A DNA stretch of 64,000 nucleotides, from NCBI GenBank assembly GCA_019638675.1, contig JAHBTE010000001.1:186001-250000 (forward strand). The letters run 5' to 3'. The translations under genes were made by a program, and so were the position numbers. How positions within the stretch are numbered: the stretch's first letter is position 1; every line of letters starts with the position of its first letter. This DNA is from Fimbriimonadaceae bacterium. GTDB lineage: Bacteria > Armatimonadota > Fimbriimonadia > Fimbriimonadales > Fimbriimonadaceae. The notes beneath the pieces were generated by a model. That model was given only the letters and a program-made list of their open reading frames with translations. It was not told the origin of the DNA and made no database searches. Positions 3,545 through 61,080 of the stretch are shown piece after piece.

Positions 3545-5551
3545 TTAGAGTCTTTGCCTGAGTTCTTCAAAAGCAAGTGGCTTTGACCAATTCCCATACG
3601 TACGGATTGCATAAGAGTCTTTTTCGAGCGAATACCTAGGAACGAATTGGTAGCTAGGGAATTGAGATTCTAATTGTTGCCAATCAGCTCCTGGCGGAAC
3701 GCCTATTTGTACGCCTTTTTCAACAAACTGAATCGCGCGGGCCATTGCTCCGGCTCTAATCGGAACTTGGTCAATCACCCACCCACTTCGGTTCACGGCA
3801 ACATCAATCGCCGATCGAACTGCATTTGTTTCAGAGCTTGCACCTAGCCAGGTGGAGTAACAGTTGCCAATTCGAATTAATTCGCCAACCGCGGAGGCTC
3901 CTAATAGGTCCAGAACTTCCGGGCCGAAAACCCGGTTCCACTCGGGCGGTAACTCTTCTCTCCGACCAGCAGTGATCCCGCCTTGTTCATCGGTAAACAG
4001 ATATATCCCGCGGTTTAATACTGCCAACCCATCCCGCCCAATGCTTTCATCTTCAGCCAGCAACATCATCTCCCAAGCTGCTGCGGCGTATTGCAAGTAG
4101 CATGAAAAGCCAGCTGGTTCAGTTGATTGACTTCCTGGCCAAGCGATGACATCGTTGATTCCGCTACGCATTCTCTGTTTTAAGAGTTCGAACGCTTCCG
4201 TGCACTGAGCTTTGAGCGTGTCGTCATTCAACAATCGGGCAGTTCGGCAAAGGCTGGCAATTGCCGTTGCCTGACTCTCGTAACTCACTAAATTTCCCTT
4301 ATACTCTTCCGGAAATGCAACAGCCTCCCTGAGTTTCTCAAGAACCGTTTGGTAAGCCGCATATTTGCTCGCTACTTCAGCGCGTTTTGTAAAAAATGGA
4401 ATTGCTTGCGGATTTTTAGCGACATCCAGCCCAAGATCGTTTACAGCTAGTTCCTGCTCTCGCGGATTGAGCAAACCGCGAATTCTTCTCGGCGAAAACG
4501 AATGTCTTGGTGATCTCCTTGCATCTTTCCATTTTGCAAAGTCATTTGTACTCGAATTAGCGTCGGCAAAACGGACAAGCATATATTCAAATTGCCGTCG
4601 TGCTTCCTGCTCAAAAATTGGGCTTCCCGACATGACTGCTACTCTTGTTAATACTGACAACATTCCGGCATTGCTTTGCGCAGTTTTGGCAAATACAATC
4701 GAATGTTCATAGTTCGCACTCCAGCGTTCAAAATATCCTCCCCAAAGAGCATCATTTACGGGGTGTTTGGATAACTTTATTAGGGACTCTACAGCTAGCT
4801 CGACCCTTCCTTGGTCAAGCAGAACTTCGTACTCAATTGGTAGTAGTTCAGATTCGGTACGGCTTTTAAACCCACCAAAATCCTGATCCAAGTAGACCAA
4901 GAGCCGGTTCGCATACTCGCTTGCTGAGCCTGGCTCTGATGCGAGCCCACCACTCAACTGAAAGGCTTCTTTTACGGCTTCTTCGTGAAGTGGAGTTGGA
5001 TTCGGATCAGCATATTGGTTTAAGGTACGTCTGAGGAATACCAAAAAGCCTGAATCGCTCATTTCACTAAGCTCACCTATGCTGGGTGCTGCAATCAAGC
5101 GACCCTCAGGCGCAAATATGTACAGCGCAAAATTTGCAGAGTCACCGCGCTCATTCCGCAAAAGTTGAAGCGGGCCAGAACGCCATTTGGGTTGCATTAA
5201 TGAGTCGGCTCGAACACATACGAATTCGCGGTTCATTAATTCAGCTACTTCTGGTGTATTTGCAAGATCGTCAAATTTGGGTCTCATTTCCCCCCAAACT
5301 GTTCCCGCATAAATCAGGATTGGTCGATCACGGCGACGCGCCAATGCAACCGTTTCAGGTGACCACTTTTTCCACTCAACCGGCTGGAATCGTGCGATCC
5401 GCATAAAATCCGATGGGGATTCGGCAAGTTCTGCGTTCGCTTCCTCATCAATAAACGGGCGGAGCAAATACGCAAGTGCTGCGAGCACCACAAAAAACAC
5501 TACTACAAAAGCAGTAGCCGAGTAGCTCCCGCGGCGACCCCAAACGGACAT
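3545..5551 (-). CDS. Membrane-anchored DUF255/YyaL-like protein with degenerate thioredoxin domain
   Basis: A protein of 668 residues with one N-terminal membrane anchor (about residues 12-31) and the rest probably extracytoplasmic. Residues about 50-170 align with the thioredoxin-like DUF255 domain: PVEWKKWS, then ALARRRDRPILIYAG, then AELMNREFVCVRAD. In normal members the position after PILIYAG carries CHWCH; here it reads TVWGEM, so the redox cysteines are absent. The C-terminal 450 residues look like the alpha-helical toroid that follows the thioredoxin domain in YyaL/SPATA20 relatives. The start codon at 5551 is preceded by CATAAT eight bases upstream, consistent with a leaderless transcript. 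The function is unknown; the loss of cysteines argues against a disulfide role. Confidence 0.75.
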   Translation of the reverse strand: MSVWGRRGSYSATAFVVVFFVVLAALAYLLRPFIDEEANAELAESPSDFMRIARFQPVEWKKWSPETVALARRRDRPILIYAGTVWGEMRPKFDDLANTPEVAELMNREFVCVRADSLMQPKWRSGPLQLLRNERGDSANFALYIFAPEGRLIAAPSIGELSEMSDSGFLVFLRRTLNQYADPNPTPLHEEAVKEAFQLSGGLASEPGSASEYANRLLVYLDQDFGGFKSRTESELLPIEYEVLLDQGRVELAVESLIKLSKHPVNDALWGGYFERWSANYEHSIVFAKTAQSNAGMLSVLTRVAVMSGSPIFEQEARRQFEYMLVRFADANSSTNDFAKWKDARRSPRHSFSPRRIRGLLNPREQELAVNDLGLDVAKNPQAIPFFTKRAEVASKYAAYQTVLEKLREAVAFPEEYKGNLVSYESQATAIASLCRTARLLNDDTLKAQCTEAFELLKQRMRSGINDVIAWPGSQSTEPAGFSCYLQYAAAAWEMMLLAEDESIGRDGLAVLNRGIYLFTDEQGGITAGRREELPPEWNRVFGPEVLDLLGASAVGELIRIGNCYSTWLGASSETNAVRSAIDVAVNRSGWVIDQVPIRAGAMARAIQFVEKGVQIGVPPGADWQQLESQFPSYQFVPRYSLEKDSYAIRTYGNWSKPLAFEELRQRL

Positions 5552-8193: not shown

Positions 8194-9023
8194 TTTGCCG
8201 AACAATCTGCCCAGCAAAGATAAATTCCTTCCTCGCGGTTGATCCACCTGATCACAGCGGATACCATCCGATTCGATCTATTTTCCGGGCGATTTCGCTC
8301 GCTGATGAGTTATCGATCCAAGATTCGCATTCAGGCAAAGATGAGATTATCTGCAACTGGGGCGACCTCCCGGCAAACAACACTCTGACAAAAACATTGC
8401 GATTTTTGCGAGAACTGCTTCCCATAGCACCTCTGAGAATTGAACTAACCAAAAATATTCCGAGCGAAGCTGGGTTGGGGGGAGGCTCATCAGATGCGGC
8501 TGGTTTGTTACGGGCACTAGGAACTGTCGCGCCGCATATCGTGACCGAGCAGTACCGGCGAGAGGTTGCATTCGCGGTCGGGGCAGACGTCACTTTCTTT
8601 CTAACAGGCGGCACCGCGAAAGCTGAGGGGTACGGTCAATTCATCGAGTCTCTTGCAGATTCGGACATATGGCACTTGTTGCTAGTAAAGCCAGAAGAAG
8701 GAATCTCAACGCCACAAGCATACAAAGAACTCGACTCAACGGATCGACCCCGCAAGGAATTTCCTATGGAACTCGGAGAGCTATATAACGACTTCGAGCG
8801 GGTCGCTCCTTGTATTTGCGGCGAGATATCCGAACGACTGCAAGTCCACGGAGCTAAAGGAGCTTTGTTATCCGGTTCTGGATCGGCGGTTTTTGGAGTT
8901 TTTGAAACCGAGGCTCTTGCCCAACAGGCAGAGAAACACATAAAATCAGAAAAGTTGGGCGCAACTTACGTAGCCCGAACACTCACACGGGAGGAATCAT
9001 TAGCCACGACATTATCATCCTAG
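8190..9023 (+). CDS. ispE: 4-diphosphocytidyl-2-C-methyl-D-erythritol kinase
   Basis: IspE phosphorylates CDP-methylerythritol in the non-mevalonate isoprenoid pathway. The 277-residue product opens with the family hallmark CPAKINSFLAV and carries the GHMP-kinase ATP loop PSEAGLGGGSSDAAGLL near residues 90-106. The C-terminal GHMP motif is GALLSGSGSAVFG. The start is a TTG at 8190 overlapping the previous stop. No ATG lies in a sensible place, and the conserved PAKIN segment begins only eight residues in. dxs, the first enzyme of the same pathway, is at 28025-29947 but is not co-transcribed with it. Confidence 0.95.
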   Translation: MICRTICPAKINSFLAVDPPDHSGYHPIRSIFRAISLADELSIQDSHSGKDEIICNWGDLPANNTLTKTLRFLRELLPIAPLRIELTKNIPSEAGLGGGSSDAAGLLRALGTVAPHIVTEQYRREVAFAVGADVTFFLTGGTAKAEGYGQFIESLADSDIWHLLLVKPEEGISTPQAYKELDSTDRPRKEFPMELGELYNDFERVAPCICGEISERLQVHGAKGALLSGSGSAVFGVFETEALAQQAEKHIKSEKLGATYVARTLTREESLATTLSS

Positions 9024-10023: not shown

Positions 10024-10233
10024 TCAATCCTCGTCTTCGTCGTCTTCTTCGATTTTGTCGTCTTTAGTGACTTCTTGCTTGGAATTATCTACTGGTTCAG
10101 GTGATTCCAGCTTAATTTCAGTAATGCTTTTCAGGTCTCGATCTGGGCAGTTATTGCAAACTACTTTTACGTTGACACTGCCGAGCCAATTTGGTACGTG
10201 CTCTAACTCTTTACCGCAACTGCATTTAATCAT
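10024..10233 (-). CDS. Small zinc-ribbon protein with acidic tail (69 aa)
   Basis: The N-terminal 35 residues hold four cysteines in a zinc-ribbon arrangement: Cys-x-Cys (CSCG) at residues 4-6 and Cys-x-x-Cys (CNNC) near 26-29. The C-terminal third is almost entirely acidic (KIEEDDEDED). The start overlaps the stop of the upstream membrane-protein gene by 8 nt, so the two are probably coupled. No partner is known. The zinc-ribbon call comes from the cysteine spacing only. Confidence 0.7.
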   Translation of the reverse strand: MIKCSCGKELEHVPNWLGSVNVKVVCNNCPDRDLKSITEIKLESPEPVDNSKQEVTKDDKIEEDDEDED

Positions 10234-10528
10234 TCGCTTCTTCTTCTACTCCGCTTGTCGGTTCTTGAACCGATGCCGGGACTTCGTCATCGGATAATTC
10301 ACTAAACTGCTGCATTGATTGCTGGTGGGTCATCCAGCCGTTGCCGAGCATCACAACTCCGCCAATCAAATAAAACATCACAAGGCCGGTTTCAAACTTT
10401 TGACCAGGATCGCGGATAACCGCTTCACCCTTGACTAAGCCCCAAACGGCTAATACCAAAAGAGCAAAACCAAATATGAAAAACGTATTTTTCCACCAAA
10501 CAGGAGGCTTTGCAGGTTTTTTGCTCAC
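10226..10528 (-). CDS. Small membrane protein, two TM helices (100 aa)
   Basis: The start is GTG at 10528. Two hydrophobic helices (about residues 15-31 and 49-64) are followed by a soluble, acidic C-terminal tail that ends in a run of glutamates. TATCTT nine bases upstream is a weak -10 candidate. The gene overlaps the zinc-ribbon gene by 8 nt and forms a two-gene unit with it. The function is unknown. Confidence 0.65.
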   Translation of the reverse strand: MSKKPAKPPVWWKNTFFIFGFALLVLAVWGLVKGEAVIRDPGQKFETGLVMFYLIGGVVMLGNGWMTHQQSMQQFSELSDDEVPASVQEPTSGVEEEAND

Positions 10529-41270: not shown

Positions 41271-43193
41271 TTAGCGATTCAGTCGTCGGGCACCGCTCCA
41301 TACGTAGCGCTTACCAGATGCATCAGCAACAGGACCTGGCACGTCGGCAACGTTGCGAGCACCTATTCTCCAATAGATGGTTGTCGCTGACGGGAACAGT
41401 GAACCAGTGTTCACAGCACCTGACGCCAACGTTTGACCAGTTGCAGTTGAGGTATCGACGAATGCATTGACTGTGACTGATTGGCTTCCAAACAGCACGT
41501 CTGGAGACAGCTGAACTACATACTCAATAGGAATCGTAGGATCAAGCCCACGGACTGATTGGAATGAGAAGTTCGTTGAACCAGAGTCGTTCGAAGGATC
41601 AATCGGCGAGATCAAGTTAGCCTTTTGCAGCGGAGTTGCTTGACCAGTTGCAGGTACTCGAACCGATACGAAGTAGCAGTATTGCTGCCCACCTGAAGTA
41701 CCAGTTGTGCCTGAAGTACCAGTGGTACCAGATGTGCTGGTTGTACCAGTCGTACTGGTTGTACCAGTTGTGCTGGTTGTACCGGTTGTACTTGTCGTAC
41801 CAGATGTACTGGTTGTACCGGAGGTACCAGTGGATCCTGTTGTGTTTGGCGGGAATGGGAGGGAGTTTGGATCAACTCGGTAAACCATTTCCACGCTGTA
41901 TGTCATTGGAACACCTGGTTGCAACGCAGGAACAGTTGGAGTTCCACCACCTGGAGGTGAACCATTGGTACAGCTATTTCCACCAGTTATGCCACCAAAG
42001 TCATCCCATGATTGGCCATTGGCTGGAGAATAGGTTCCAACTGTATCGTCTATCACTGAGCTTGCAGGAGCAAGGACAGTCGCAACTGGGTTCGTATTAA
42101 CACCCTGTCGCCACACTTGCCATCGGTATGGCCCCTCGTTATTTCCTCGAGTAAATGCGTCAAGAGTCCAGCTCACCTTAACCCCTGGTGAAGTACCTGG
42201 AGTAAATGATTCTGCTGTAACGTTTCCAATTGGTGTATTGTCGCCAGCTCGTCCACCCAAGAGCAAGAAGCCCAGGATGACGAGAAGAATCAGCATTGAG
42301 AATAAGCCTTGGTTTCCACCAGATGAACGGCGAGTGCTCGTTTTAGCTCCACCATCAGCGTTGAATACGCCACCTCTTAATTCTGGCAAGTCAACAATCG
42401 CTTGGATTTTATCGCCAGGCTGAACGCCTTTAATTCCACGGGTGATGCGAACAAATGAAGAATCTGGATCAACGCTTGTAACAACACCTTCAGAAACTTG
42501 GTCTCGACCTCGCATGAAAATAACCTTCATGCCACTTTTGAAACCAGAGCGCGCACCTTTATTGACAAGCACTTGCTCATCTAAGGTGTTCAAAACTGTA
42601 GCACTTGGCAAAATGTTCGACTCCATTTCGGAAGTCGCGTGGAATGCGCCATCTACAAGTGCATCCGCAAGCATCGTTGCCACGCTAGTATCGTCAGCAC
42701 GTGGTGCAGATCGACCAGTAACGATTGCGCCGTTTACCGGAACGCCGCCGCTTACCGTGCGAACTTGAACGGACATGATGACTTGGGCTTGCTTTCCACC
42801 AGGAACTTCAACCACACGCCAGTTTGCAACTTCACCAGTTACGATGAAATTAGCATCCACAGCATCGCCAAGTCGAAGCAAATCGGCTGGGCGGGTAACA
42901 GGTGGGATTAAACCAAGATCGCGCATAGCCCTCGCGACTTGATCTGACGGAACTGTTTCTCGGTTCCGTGCAAAAACCTGACCGAGAGCATCGCGTACCT
43001 TATCGCCCGCTTCCGTACCAAGATTAAGTTCTTGGCTAGGAACGCGTACACCAAAAGGCGTTACCGCATATCGCTCGGTTTCTTGAATCTGGGCATTAGC
43101 CTTTCCGGCAATACCAATCGACACGGCTGCTAATAATAGCGCGCCAATTCGGGCGAGTTGCCCACTTATTCCAGACATCGTTGACAGTTTCAC
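41271..43193 (-). CDS. Secreted CsgG-like N-terminal protein with Thr/Ser/Gly repeat linker
   Basis: I chose the GTG at 43193 because AGGAGGA lies nine bases upstream and it yields a proper signal peptide ending GKANA. The 640-residue product has an N-terminal CsgG/LpoB-like fold (about 35-190: FGVRVPSQEL, ADLLRLGDAVDANFIVTGEV). A beta domain with SGMKVIFMRGRD follows (about 200-270), then a lone TM helix (about 290-305, FSMLILLVILGFLLLGG). Then comes a fibronectin-like region, a low-complexity repeat (six-residue units) and a C-terminal beta domain. It probably spans or lines the envelope. The function is unknown. Confidence 0.7.
   Translation of the reverse strand: MKLSTMSGISGQLARIGALLLAAVSIGIAGKANAQIQETERYAVTPFGVRVPSQELNLGTEAGDKVRDALGQVFARNRETVPSDQVARAMRDLGLIPPVTRPADLLRLGDAVDANFIVTGEVANWRVVEVPGGKQAQVIMSVQVRTVSGGVPVNGAIVTGRSAPRADDTSVATMLADALVDGAFHATSEMESNILPSATVLNTLDEQVLVNKGARSGFKSGMKVIFMRGRDQVSEGVVTSVDPDSSFVRITRGIKGVQPGDKIQAIVDLPELRGGVFNADGGAKTSTRRSSGGNQGLFSMLILLVILGFLLLGGRAGDNTPIGNVTAESFTPGTSPGVKVSWTLDAFTRGNNEGPYRWQVWRQGVNTNPVATVLAPASSVIDDTVGTYSPANGQSWDDFGGITGGNSCTNGSPPGGGTPTVPALQPGVPMTYSVEMVYRVDPNSLPFPPNTTGSTGTSGTTSTSGTTSTTGTTSTTGTTSTTGTTSTSGTTGTSGTTGTSGGQQYCYFVSVRVPATGQATPLQKANLISPIDPSNDSGSTNFSFQSVRGLDPTIPIEYVVQLSPDVLFGSQSVTVNAFVDTSTATGQTLASGAVNTGSLFPSATTIYWRIGARNVADVPGPVADASGKRYVWSGARRLNR
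41695..41840 (-). repeat. 18-bp minisatellite coding for (S/T)GTT(S/G)T units
   Basis: About eight to nine imperfect copies of an 18-bp unit encode successive six-residue blocks of Thr, Ser and Gly. Because 18 is a multiple of three, gain or loss of units keeps the frame. The nucleotide copies vary at a few positions (gtaccagttgtgctggtt versus gtaccggttgtacttgtc). Confidence 0.85.
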
Positions 43194-57199: not shown

Positions 57200-59208
57200 C
57201 ACGACTTGAGAAGCGGCTCCAAACGACATTCAGTTTTCATCATCGTACTGCGGAACCAAGTTCCATCTGGGCATACCAGCGGGAACCACCAGGCGGCTGG
57301 CCTATAGCCTGCCTTCTCTAAGCCTGCGCTACTCACCACCGCTTCACGAATCAACTTTGCCCGCATAAGCTCTGCTTCTAACGCGATGTTGAAGCGTCGC
57401 TCGCGTATTCGAGTGACGGTGTAACTGGTCACGATTTGGTTTTGGTGGGATTCCAATTTTTCGTAATCTGACTTTAAGTTGTATCGGTCTTGATCTAATT
57501 GCTTAATTTGAGAAATGATCTGCTCTCGTTTTGCCCAATCCTTGTCACTCGGAGATTTCTCAAAAATCGCCTCTCGCCAGTGGCGCCCTTTTTCATCTTG
57601 TAAGTCGTTCCGCTGTTGATTGGCTGATTTGAATTCAGCAAGCACGGCTCGTTTTTGATCTTTTACCGACTTAATCTGCTCGCCTAGTTGTGCAAATTCT
57701 TGTTGAATCGAGCCATATTCGTGGGCTAAACATTCCCATTGCCCGCCCAATTCTCTTTGCAGATATCCCAACAACGCGAGCGGGCGCCGGACTTCAGCGA
57801 GTTCTGACAACCTTGCCCGCTGGGCTTTTGCAACTTCCCTCCACCGCAACGCAAATGTAGGAGCACTCAATTCGTCGGTACCGAAAGCACGATGCATCGT
57901 TTCTGGCAGGTGCAGCCAGGCGCAACAGTCATCCATCGCATCCCATGGATTGAGTTTTGTCCTCAAAATCGGATGCCACTTTGCTCGAACTCCTGACTTA
58001 ACAAGCGATTCCGCCATTTGCGCGGATCGCCACACGTATCCGCTTGCTCCTTCGTGAAACACGAATACAAATTCGGCACTCAGCATCAAAATCAACGAAA
58101 CTGCCTTACCGACCAGAACGCAGTCCGGGCCAAATTTGGCCTCAATCACATCAGCAAGTTGCTGAATAGATTCTATTGACTTTTTAAATGAAAAACCGAT
58201 TGGATTATCGGTCATCACGACCCCACCCCGATTGCCCAGCCTCAGCGTCCCTCGCCCAACGCCAGGAATGTACAAGTCGAACGGAAGTGTGCCGCTACCA
58301 AATCGGTCTAATGTGTAAATTTCTGAACCAGCCACAGCGTCATCATAAGCGGCGCGAGCAATTGGCTTAGTTTTTGGGTTCAAGAACAAATCTACAATCT
58401 TAAATCGATCTAGCCCACAAGTTTCTCGATTGAATTTCAACAGCCGTGTTGTCCGAGTTGTTTCGATATCCAACTTCCGCCCGGCAACGAGTTGATAGAA
58501 CTCAGGAATTAAAGCCTCGTAATATGCCGCAAGACTAGGATCAGCCGATGATTCAGCGGTCTCGCAGATCAACTGCACCAAGTGATCGCGCATTTTTTCC
58601 GATTCAGAGTGATGCCGACCAGAAATCAAACGCAGGCTTTCATCCACCGCCCAAGTGAACGTATCAAAAATTTGCGGCAACATCCGGCTGAGTTCTTTTT
58701 CCGCTGTGATTTTGGATTCATCACTTAAGGAAACCACCCCACGCCATCCGTAAGCCTCGGTAATTTCATCTAAGAAACCAGGGCGATGCTCTTCCAGCAT
58801 CGAAATTTTTGCCCCAGCGGAGGAAAGCTTTTCCTTGGTAACTACTGTTTCACTTCCAAAGAGATGGCTGAATTCACCTGCTGCGCTCCACAAATCTTTC
58901 GTGGAAGTATCGTTATGCGGTAAGGCGGCGAATCCTTTTCCGCTCCCTTTAAACTTAGCAAAATAATCTGTGTCGTGGACACCTGCGATACAGGGACGAG
59001 GCTGACCACACTCTTGAAAAGCGGCGAAGATGCCCGACTTCATGGGCTCATCCCAGAATACGGTTTGACCAAGAGCAAGTAAAGGAACACCCGGAGAAAC
59101 TCGATCAAGTTCCTCGACTACTGAACGGAATTTCGGACAGTCGGAATTCATTCCTTTATCCGCATATTGTAATTCAACCAGCACCCTTTCACCACGCGTG
59201 TGACCCAA
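57199..59208 (-). CDS. Large unknown protein with C-terminal coiled coil (669 aa)
   Basis: No signal peptide or TM helix, so probably cytosolic. The N-terminal part contains ALGQTVFWDEP and AGVHDTDYF. A middle stretch has ALPHNDTSTKDLWSAAGE and later ARAAYDDAVAG. From about residue 480 to 620 the sequence is coiled coil, rich in Glu, Lys and Gln (EYGSIQQEFAQLGEQIKSV). The N-terminus is uncertain: TTG at 59208, GTG at 59184 and ATG at 59151 are all in frame. It is coupled to dapF by TGATG. I know no characterised homologue; a link to cell-wall precursor supply is only a guess from position. Confidence 0.7.
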   Translation of the reverse strand: MGHTRGERVLVELQYADKGMNSDCPKFRSVVEELDRVSPGVPLLALGQTVFWDEPMKSGIFAAFQECGQPRPCIAGVHDTDYFAKFKGSGKGFAALPHNDTSTKDLWSAAGEFSHLFGSETVVTKEKLSSAGAKISMLEEHRPGFLDEITEAYGWRGVVSLSDESKITAEKELSRMLPQIFDTFTWAVDESLRLISGRHHSESEKMRDHLVQLICETAESSADPSLAAYYEALIPEFYQLVAGRKLDIETTRTTRLLKFNRETCGLDRFKIVDLFLNPKTKPIARAAYDDAVAGSEIYTLDRFGSGTLPFDLYIPGVGRGTLRLGNRGGVVMTDNPIGFSFKKSIESIQQLADVIEAKFGPDCVLVGKAVSLILMLSAEFVFVFHEGASGYVWRSAQMAESLVKSGVRAKWHPILRTKLNPWDAMDDCCAWLHLPETMHRAFGTDELSAPTFALRWREVAKAQRARLSELAEVRRPLALLGYLQRELGGQWECLAHEYGSIQQEFAQLGEQIKSVKDQKRAVLAEFKSANQQRNDLQDEKGRHWREAIFEKSPSDKDWAKREQIISQIKQLDQDRYNLKSDYEKLESHQNQIVTSYTVTRIRERRFNIALEAELMRAKLIREAVVSSAGLEKAGYRPAAWWFPLVCPDGTWFRSTMMKTECRLEPLLKS

Positions 59209-59331
59209 CCCACACGGTTTCTACGCATAAATGAACACAAAACGTCGAATAGACCCTCGTTTTTTTGCTAGGTCGTGCCGAATATCTCTTTGGGAGTCAA
59301 TCCCACGCCACATCGGCATGGCCTATCAAGC

Positions 59332-59598
59332 ATGAGCTTACGAAGGAAGAAAAGCGATAAGGGAGTCAGCATCAGCCTGGCAAGCCAGATTACGGGAGTG
59401 GAAGTTCATACCCTCCGGTACTGGGAAAAAGAATTTGCTGGCTATCTGAACCCAATCCGCACAAATGGTGGTCAACGACGCTATCGCGCCGAAGACATCC
59501 AAGTTGTGTTAGAACTTCGTAAATTGCTCCGCGATGAGATGTTCAGCATCGCAGGTGCCCGCCGTCACCTAGCTCGGTATTACAAAGAAGCGGCATAA
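59332..59598 (+). CDS. MerR-family transcriptional regulator
   Basis: From the ATG at 59332 the 88-residue product consists of a helix-turn-helix with the family signature GVEVHTLRYWEKEF and the wing NPIRTNGGQRRYRAEDI. It ends soon after a short dimerisation helix (DEMFSIAGARRHLARYYKEA). No metal- or ligand-binding domain follows. A GTG at 59275 is in frame but adds unconserved residues. Its stop is directly followed by the thyX fragment on the other strand. Target genes are unknown. Confidence 0.85.
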   Translation: MSLRRKKSDKGVSISLASQITGVEVHTLRYWEKEFAGYLNPIRTNGGQRRYRAEDIQVVLELRKLLRDEMFSIAGARRHLARYYKEAA

Positions 59599-59714
59599 TT
59601 ACTGCGGCTGTACGACCGCTTGCTCGATTTCTTTAGCTGGCTCGGCCGCCTGAATTTTAGATAACTTCTGTTCAAATATCGCCAATGAGCGACCTTCCAG
59701 CGTATTCTCTAATC
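59599..59714 (-). pseudogene. thyX: Detached duplicate of the thyX 3' end
   Basis: On the minus strand this segment encodes GRSLAIFEQKLSKIQAAE and continues to EIEQAVVQPQ-stop, the same C-terminus as the intact thyX at 60097. Over the last 33 codons the two copies differ at 11 codons, of which 10 are synonymous and one is Ser for Pro. The match ends near 59714, just before the ATG of the orphan ORF. There is no start codon and no rest of the gene, so it is a remnant. Confidence 0.9.
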
Positions 59715-59719
59715 GCGAG

Positions 59720-60091
59720 ATGAAATATCCTCGAACTACACATATTCAGTATGAGCGTGATAGCGACGGGCAAGCTGCTACTTTCAAAATAATTCGTACT
59801 TGCAAAAATCTTTCGGGAGGAACTGTACTTCTTGCCCGCTATGTTTCGAATGATGTCAACTGGCTTGAGTCCGGGATGCTTTATTCTTTTTCTCCCCGAT
59901 TTGTCGGGCATGACTTTGAGGATATCAATTCGTTGCTAATGCCCGAGGGGAGCAGTCTTTCTCAAAAAATGAATGCTCCGGTTAATTTGGTTAAATTGAA
60001 ACCACATTGCATAAATGCAGATTTCATCCAAAGTGGTGATTGGGAACAGGTCAGCATCGGAATCATTACGGAGTTGCCGGACTTAACCTGA
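59720..60091 (+). CDS. Orphan protein between two thyX 3' ends (123 aa)
   Basis: An ATG-started frame of 123 residues that fills nearly all of the 382 bp between the thyX fragment and intact thyX. The sequence is mixed alpha/beta with two cysteines (RTCKNLS and LKPHCINA) and no signal peptide or TM helix; no motif is recognised. It is convergent with thyX and ends 5 bp before the thyX stop. The flanking duplication suggests that it arrived as a unit (inference). It may be an accessory gene of narrow distribution. Confidence 0.6.
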   Translation: MKYPRTTHIQYERDSDGQAATFKIIRTCKNLSGGTVLLARYVSNDVNWLESGMLYSFSPRFVGHDFEDINSLLMPEGSSLSQKMNAPVNLVKLKPHCINADFIQSGDWEQVSIGIITELPDLT

Positions 60092-60096
60092 GAATT

Positions 60097-60975
60097 TTAT
60101 TGAGGCTGAACAACTGCTTGCTCAATCTCTTTAGCTGGCTCGGCCGCCTGAATCTTAGATAGCTTCTGTTCAAATATCGCTAATGGGCGACCTTCCAGCG
60201 GATTTTCTTTGCCAGCCATCAAGGCGGCGACTGCCTCGCATTCTGCGCGTGAAAGTTTGACTGAACCCAAAATATGTTCCTCAAACGCTTCGTAAGCGCA
60301 TGGAGCAACTGCTTTTGCACACTGGGCCATTGCCTCGGCAAAAACCCGAATCTCGTATTGGGCATGGCTATCCATACGGAGTTGCAGGAACCGAAAGAGA
60401 TTATGGAGATCAATCTGCCAATACCATTCTGTGTAGAGTGAGTTCGGCAAGTTTGCTCGCGCTATTTCCCGTGCTAACCCTTTTTCGATCATTTGCGTGT
60501 AGTGATCGTAAATCGCGCGTTGATCGGCTTCCATTTCGGCGATCATTGCGCGGGCGGTGGCATCGTCCAGACATTCTTCACCGCGAGCTTGCTTATTATC
60601 TTCGCTTTGAACTCGCATTTGGTCGAGTTCTGGCAAGTAGAACTCATCCCGCATGATTGAATACCGACCACTGATTTCGTTTAGTCGAGCCGTGCGGTGG
60701 CGCACCCACTGGCGAGCAACAAAAATCGGCATTTTGCAGTGGAAAGTCAAGACCACTTGCTCAAACGGGCTCGTGTGCTCGTTTCGGAGCAAGTAGTGAA
60801 TCAATCCGCGATCTTGGCGGTAGCTCTTTGTTCCTGCACCATAACTCACCCGCGCAGATTGAACAATTCGGTCGTCCCCGCCCAGATAATCCACCAGCCG
60901 CACAAACCCTTTATCAAGGACTTTAATCTCCTGGTCTAGGAGTGTTTCTGCTTCTGGAACGACCGTTCTCGCCAT
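60097..60975 (-). CDS. thyX: Flavin-dependent thymidylate synthase
   Basis: ThyX makes dTMP from dUMP with FAD and methylenetetrahydrofolate. The ATG at 60975 gives 292 residues, somewhat longer than the common 230-260 because of a C-terminal tail. The family signature RHRTARLNEISGRYS is intact, as is the HTSPFEQVVLTFHCK region near the flavin site. CAAAAT lies six bases before the start. The last about 110 bp are duplicated at 59599-59714. Confidence 0.95.
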   Translation of the reverse strand: MARTVVPEAETLLDQEIKVLDKGFVRLVDYLGGDDRIVQSARVSYGAGTKSYRQDRGLIHYLLRNEHTSPFEQVVLTFHCKMPIFVARQWVRHRTARLNEISGRYSIMRDEFYLPELDQMRVQSEDNKQARGEECLDDATARAMIAEMEADQRAIYDHYTQMIEKGLAREIARANLPNSLYTEWYWQIDLHNLFRFLQLRMDSHAQYEIRVFAEAMAQCAKAVAPCAYEAFEEHILGSVKLSRAECEAVAALMAGKENPLEGRPLAIFEQKLSKIQAAEPAKEIEQAVVQPQ

Positions 60976-61080
60976 GCTTTTATTTTGGCTGGTTTGGCCA
61001 AGCGGTCTTGCGCCGATTTCCACACCCTTCACACACTAGGGAGCGGGGAATTTTTTACCGAAAATAAGAATGAAATTTTC

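Follow-up and report, generated by a model that had tools for sequence, protein, structure and literature searches.

A thyX 3′ end duplicated around a single orphan gene in a Fimbriimonadaceae genome, and the same scar at two other genes

Single-gene insertions that lack visible mobility machinery abound in pan-genomes, and the routes by which these genes entered are mostly guessed. The locus described here poses this problem in miniature. Within a 64,000-nucleotide window (the whole stretch of DNA that was analyzed) of a Fimbriimonadaceae genome (Armatimonadota; 2.85 Mb in three contigs, labelled G000), the 3′ end of thyX occurs twice, once on each side of an open reading frame (ORF) that resembles nothing else we could find. 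How did the ORF come to lie between the two copies?

Anatomy of the thyX locus

The locus comprises the following features:
59332–59598, + strand: merR-family regulator gene (Pfam MerR_1, E 1.3e-17), in relatives the convergent neighbor of thyX
59599–59710, − strand: copy A, an orphan thyX 3′ fragment of 37 codons including the stop
59720–60091, + strand: inserted orphan ORF of 123 amino acids, convergent with thyX
60097–60208, − strand: copy B, the 3′ end of the intact thyX and repeat partner of copy A
60097–60975, − strand: intact thyX, encoding a flavin-dependent thymidylate synthase (Pfam Thy1, E 9.9e-57)

Copies A and B form an ungapped 112-nt direct repeat that is 88% identical, with a spacing of 498, and both run to the thyX stop codon and no further. 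Copy A is severed from any thyX body and adjoins merR, the stop codon of which abuts it (an alternative GTG start for merR lies at 59275). Copy B belongs to a gene whose product has 99% amino acid identity to that of the nearest sequenced relative; its start codon was taken at MARTVVPEA, and the GTG at 61032 is an alternative start. The ORF fills the space between the copies, with a 5-bp gap between its stop codon and that of thyX. The sequence-only reading of this DNA had described a thyX end duplicated around a single ORF, which these features bear out, and had aligned the copies without gaps from 59599 to 59714; the alignment is indeed gap-free, but the homology stops at 59710. Because this is the only direct repeat of at least 40 nt within 5 kb in the window, besides one array of 9-bp units, chance was excluded as its origin. 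The array, at 41691–41852, consists of coding-type short repeats. No inverted repeat bounds the insert at thyX. We considered and rejected a transposon insertion, given the lack of terminal inverted repeats and a direct repeat of 112 nt, 12% diverged, rather than a short exact target duplication.

The ORF has a GC content of 0.427 and a GC3 of 0.41, versus 0.495 for the genome stretch. Its stop-to-stop frame spans 145 codons and, because this frame continues uninterrupted into copy A on its upstream side, the N terminus may be truncated and the start is uncertain. Searches of Pfam, NCBIfam and PHROGs returned no match at a meaningful E-value, those of plasmids, phages, viral contigs and genome contigs returned no significant match, and no significant relative was present in 84 other genomes of the family (the nearest relative among them), in keeping with the initial impression that the product has no recognized family. 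A sigma-70 promoter scan around the ORF found none and was uninformative, and AlphaFold run on the single sequence gave a mean pLDDT of 36.5, too low for use.

An empty site in relatives, and divergence of the two copies

The nearest sequenced relative, ACE_ARM8 (CP075366.1, hereafter G003; ~87% nucleotide identity), has an empty site: a single thyX end lies against merR, the two stop codons being directly adjacent (0 bp apart). In seven further genomes with the thyX–merR pair, the stop-to-stop distance is −4 to +2 bp. A DNA search with the whole region across ten genomes recovered, outside G000, only the single thyX end of G003 and a weak thyX match in a second genome (G007), and neither the ORF nor a second thyX tail was found elsewhere in the genus. 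The arrangement is thus seen in G000 only among the ten genomes rather than being common to all relatives, and lineages lacking the ORF have a single thyX end adjoining merR, both as expected if the insertion were recent. Because G003 has an empty site and the other relatives keep the gene ends touching, the insertion is most simply read as a gain in the G000 lineage after its split from G003.

Among ~110 other thyX loci, one alone, L068 from another Armatimonadetes genome, shows a clear nucleotide-level repeat of the gene tail, and its boundaries differ: a 46-bp copy, 98% identical, lies 185 bp downstream (3829–3874 and 4014–4059). Three family members (L040, L046 and L052) have different single genes inserted at the same thyX–merR junction, and no tail copies were detectable at these insertions.

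Across the 37-codon block, copies A and B differ at 13 codons, 11 of them synonymously and 2 not (Pro/Ser and Pro/Thr); over the last 33 codons, the codon table agrees exactly with the 11 differences first reported (10 synonymous and one Pro/Ser). When changes were polarized using G003 as the outgroup, copy A had 4 synonymous and 2 nonsynonymous private changes and copy B had 6 and 0. If A had been decaying freely, neutral expectation would be for about three quarters of its changes to be nonsynonymous and for its total to exceed that of B severalfold; neutral decay gave p of about 0.04–0.06 for the types of change and 0.04–0.06 for their numbers. The proposal that both copies evolved as functional thyX ends is therefore reasonable, with modest support from each of the two tests, although neither is decisive. 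The divergence between the tails (~12%, mostly synonymous in both copies) equals the G000–G003 distance, and a source of the second tail would therefore be a lineage of that rank. Nowhere do the copies match exactly for more than 26 bp, and the 26-bp run is bounded by mismatches at either end. The order of private changes along the repeat places no crossover: in a switch-point test, the best split accommodated 9 of the 12 informative sites (permutation p 0.24), and the corresponding p for the lipoprotein-like gene described below was 0.66.

The same scar at two other genes

We compared 1.38 Mb of G000, from a single strain, against 1.40 Mb of G003, in both cases roughly half the genome. The collinear chain consisted of 131 blocks separated by 122 gaps of at least 250 bp, among which 45 were clean insertions in G000 and 36 were clean insertions in G003. 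With some 45 such insertions in 1.38 Mb, several of them in the window, the earlier view of the thyX ORF as the window's best candidate for a recently acquired cassette proved too narrow.

Two other protein genes of G000 had the scar seen at thyX, each consisting of an intact gene, a convergent inserted gene, and an orphan copy of the last 47–66 host codons:
G000:C1:133694-134104: lipoprotein-like gene, then an inserted 279-aa gene and a 143-bp tail copy at 135068-135210
G000:C1:1357523-1358458: hydroxypyruvate-isomerase-like gene (named by eye, without a profile), then an inserted 201-aa gene and a 198-bp tail copy at 1359159-1359358

All three loci share two features: the orphan tail terminates with the host gene's stop codon, and the inserted gene lies in convergent orientation to its host. 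The lipoprotein-like and isomerase-like gene ends are each single in G003, in which the corresponding sites have 48–175 bp behind the host gene. The comparison yielded these two further 3′-end duplications, each with an inserted gene of its own; the thyX insertion remains lineage-specific but is no one-off.

The lipoprotein-like tail copy is 84% identical over the last 47 codons, with 13 synonymous and 7 nonsynonymous codons, and the isomerase-like tail copy is 74% identical, decayed, and interrupted by a stop. The three tails plausibly form an age series in which thyX is the youngest (88% identical) and the isomerase the oldest. The 279-aa protein is also an orphan, present among 85 family genomes in G000 only, and none of the three units was seen to contain an integrase- or transposase-like ORF. 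An independent scan for local direct repeats in the 1.38 Mb of G000 returned nine pairs, three of which were these scars; other local repeats in G000 and G003 were Rhs-like, pilin-like, ABC-transporter or intergenic. The compared 1.40 Mb of G003 had no scar of this kind at a protein gene. It did have a 4.6-kb insert at tRNA-Ala (L118; G003:C1:2382387-2377633), in which 82 bp of the tRNA 3′ end are duplicated. The insert has no visible integrase and holds three genes, for products of 714, 457 and 203 aa (the shortest is PEP-CTERM-like); this site is empty in G000.

Because the same scar occurs at two other G000 genes, the thyX locus points to an entry route for new genes in which shared gene ends, not a transposon, anchor the incoming DNA. 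Ranging from near-intact to stop-containing, gene-tail scars of different ages would then physically record homology-anchored gains of genes in an uncultured phylum, and they can be counted, dated, and compared across genomes, tying orphan genes to a testable route of entry.

Several other features were observed in the same comparison. The 5′ end of the 279-aa gene, together with upstream DNA, is repeated in decayed form (75% identical) inside the same 3.2-kb insertion (L125:8791-9078 and 10186-10497). The gap containing the isomerase tail also holds a DNA-cytosine-methyltransferase-like gene and a restriction-partner-like neighbor, both recognized by eye (L201:9425-11220; G000:C1:1359425-1361220). 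Elsewhere in G000, a 7.6-kb metal-efflux-type cluster (CzcCBA-like by eye) lies between two degenerate tRNA 3′ fragments (L129:9095-16705; G000:C1:319095-326705), in a region whose surroundings have little in common with G003, and a 31-bp repeat, 87% identical and single-copy in G003, flanks a two-gene, 1.8-kb insertion (L197:6966-6996 and 8770-8800; G000:C1:1276966-1278800).

Routes of entry

Immediately beside the thyX scar, a 366-bp tract that spans most of merR together with its upstream region (59190–59555) is ~98.9% identical to G003, against a background of 87%. The 1.38 Mb contain 23 such tracts, and this one probably records a recent homologous exchange between the G000 and G003 lineages. 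It stops 44 bp before copy A, an adjacency that we noticed post hoc; indel boundaries near high-identity tracts were weakly enriched overall (11 of 244, versus about 6 expected). G000 also has ComEC and DprA family genes, which are consistent with competence without being proof of it.

We think it fairly probable that the G000 lineage gained this one accessory gene by homology-anchored recombination with DNA from a diverged relative. The donor fragment would have come from a relative diverged from G000 to roughly the same degree as G003, in which the orphan gene lay directly behind the thyX end, and the thyX tail on the fragment would have paired with the resident thyX end. Integration could then have occurred through a single crossover of a recircularized, tail-trimmed fragment, or through homology-facilitated illegitimate recombination (HFIR), with homologous joining at thyX and an illegitimate junction at the far end; HFIR would lead to a comparable product if that junction fell within the resident gene. 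Either event would leave thyX whole with one tail, the new gene convergent behind it, and a 5′-truncated second tail against merR.

Four things that we observed directly (the scar anatomy, the empty site, the recurrence at two more genes, and the ComEC and DprA family genes) anchor this reading; the donor, the type of crossover, entry through transformation, and any role for the ORF are inferred. We favor homology-anchored gain because the insert is flanked by resident-gene homology and the site is empty in relatives, because three unrelated genes were targeted by units with no integrase- or transposase-like ORF, and because the tails have diverged to the G000–G003 level, an exchange tract lies 44 bp away, ComEC and DprA are present, and there is precedent in Escherichia coli. 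Counting against it, no donor genome was found, and local divergence along the thyX body was unremarkable, with nothing to mark a donor tract.

In the E. coli lacZ-end experiments, a fragment with one homologous gene end produced a duplication in 56 of 60 integrants, which was ascribed to single crossover of a fragment that had been partly degraded and recircularized, and the gene-end duplication measured 109–950 bp in 14 sequenced clones (PMC3240628). As at the G000 loci (duplications of 112–198 bp), the integrants had foreign DNA flanked by a partial gene-end duplication and no recombinase in the insert. They differ in that a laboratory plasmid and selection were used, whereas the G000 cases are natural, number three in half a genome, and have single orphan genes as cargo. 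A point against single crossover at thyX is the small size of the circle required, only 498 bp. HFIR is known from natural transformation in Streptococcus pneumoniae, Acinetobacter baylyi and Pseudomonas stutzeri (summarized in PMC3240628), and it resembles our cases in requiring homology on one side only and in yielding insertions of about gene size. However, HFIR usually deletes a similar length of resident DNA rather than duplicating it (PMC3240628), which we count against it here, the resident gene end in G000 having been duplicated.

The position of the scars may also reflect what a genome tolerates. Because the merR and thyX stop codons abut or overlap in relatives, an insert would spare both genes only if it fell exactly between them or brought a gene end of its own, and tail duplications would accordingly be a natural class of survivors among inserts. 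Tight packing is not the sole cause, since the lipoprotein-like and isomerase-like sites have room behind the host gene.

The main rival, which we regard as unlikely, is site-specific integration, which yields the same layout: a tiny or decayed integrative element would have used the thyX 3′ end as its attachment site, with the recombinase acting in trans or since lost. Integrative elements reside in gene 3′ ends, as prophage e14 does in icd and as tRNA-borne islands do, and they share with our units both a duplicated gene end and a functional tail supplied by the element, with mainly synonymous differences; an element bringing a replacement gene end would thus account for the synonymous differences at thyX. 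In each of the three protein cases the block finishes precisely at a stop codon, and the G003 tRNA-Ala insert has the classical layout, likewise with no integrase in view. Nonetheless, the G000 units differ from such elements in having no recombinase in any unit, a size of ~0.5 kb with one gene, and three unrelated protein targets. The thyX copies also present no unambiguous identical core, the longest shared run being the mismatch-bounded 26 bp, and the non-Xer tyrosine integrases (one full-length, one partial) and two serine recombinases of G000 all lie far away.

Less probable again is local duplication, in which a second thyX end was generated on the spot, the ORF entered or originated between the two ends, and A has simply been decaying. 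Partial gene-end copies do arise locally, as the L068 repeat illustrates, and copy A has six private changes, two of them nonsynonymous. However, a neutral copy A should have accumulated an excess of mostly nonsynonymous changes, whereas the copies have 6 private changes each, those of A at a ratio of 4:2, and local duplication leaves unexplained why a single foreign-looking gene lies between the copies in three cases. We see a slimmer prospect still that the units belong to an unrecognized class of integrase-less, single-gene mini-cassettes (0.5–1.1 kb) that use host-gene 3′ ends as addresses and move orphan genes between related Armatimonadota with a recombinase supplied in trans. It is very improbable that the assembly is a chimera joining two co-occurring strains, only one of which has the ORF: G003 is a MAG and G000 probably is also, and two co-occurring species would show the 12% tail divergence, but the shared exact runs (at most 26 bp) are too short for the usual assembly overlaps, the contig spans 2.8 Mb, and the evolved, stop-containing isomerase tail copy indicates that this type of scar is real.

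The thyX scar can also be set beside the displaced C-terminal tips of Rhs/YD-repeat proteins, in which orphan gene tails lie behind an inserted module of a polymorphic protein. Rhs-like cases occur in both G000 and G003. The thyX locus differs from these in that the host gene encodes a metabolic enzyme, the tail of which is nearly unchanged at the protein level.
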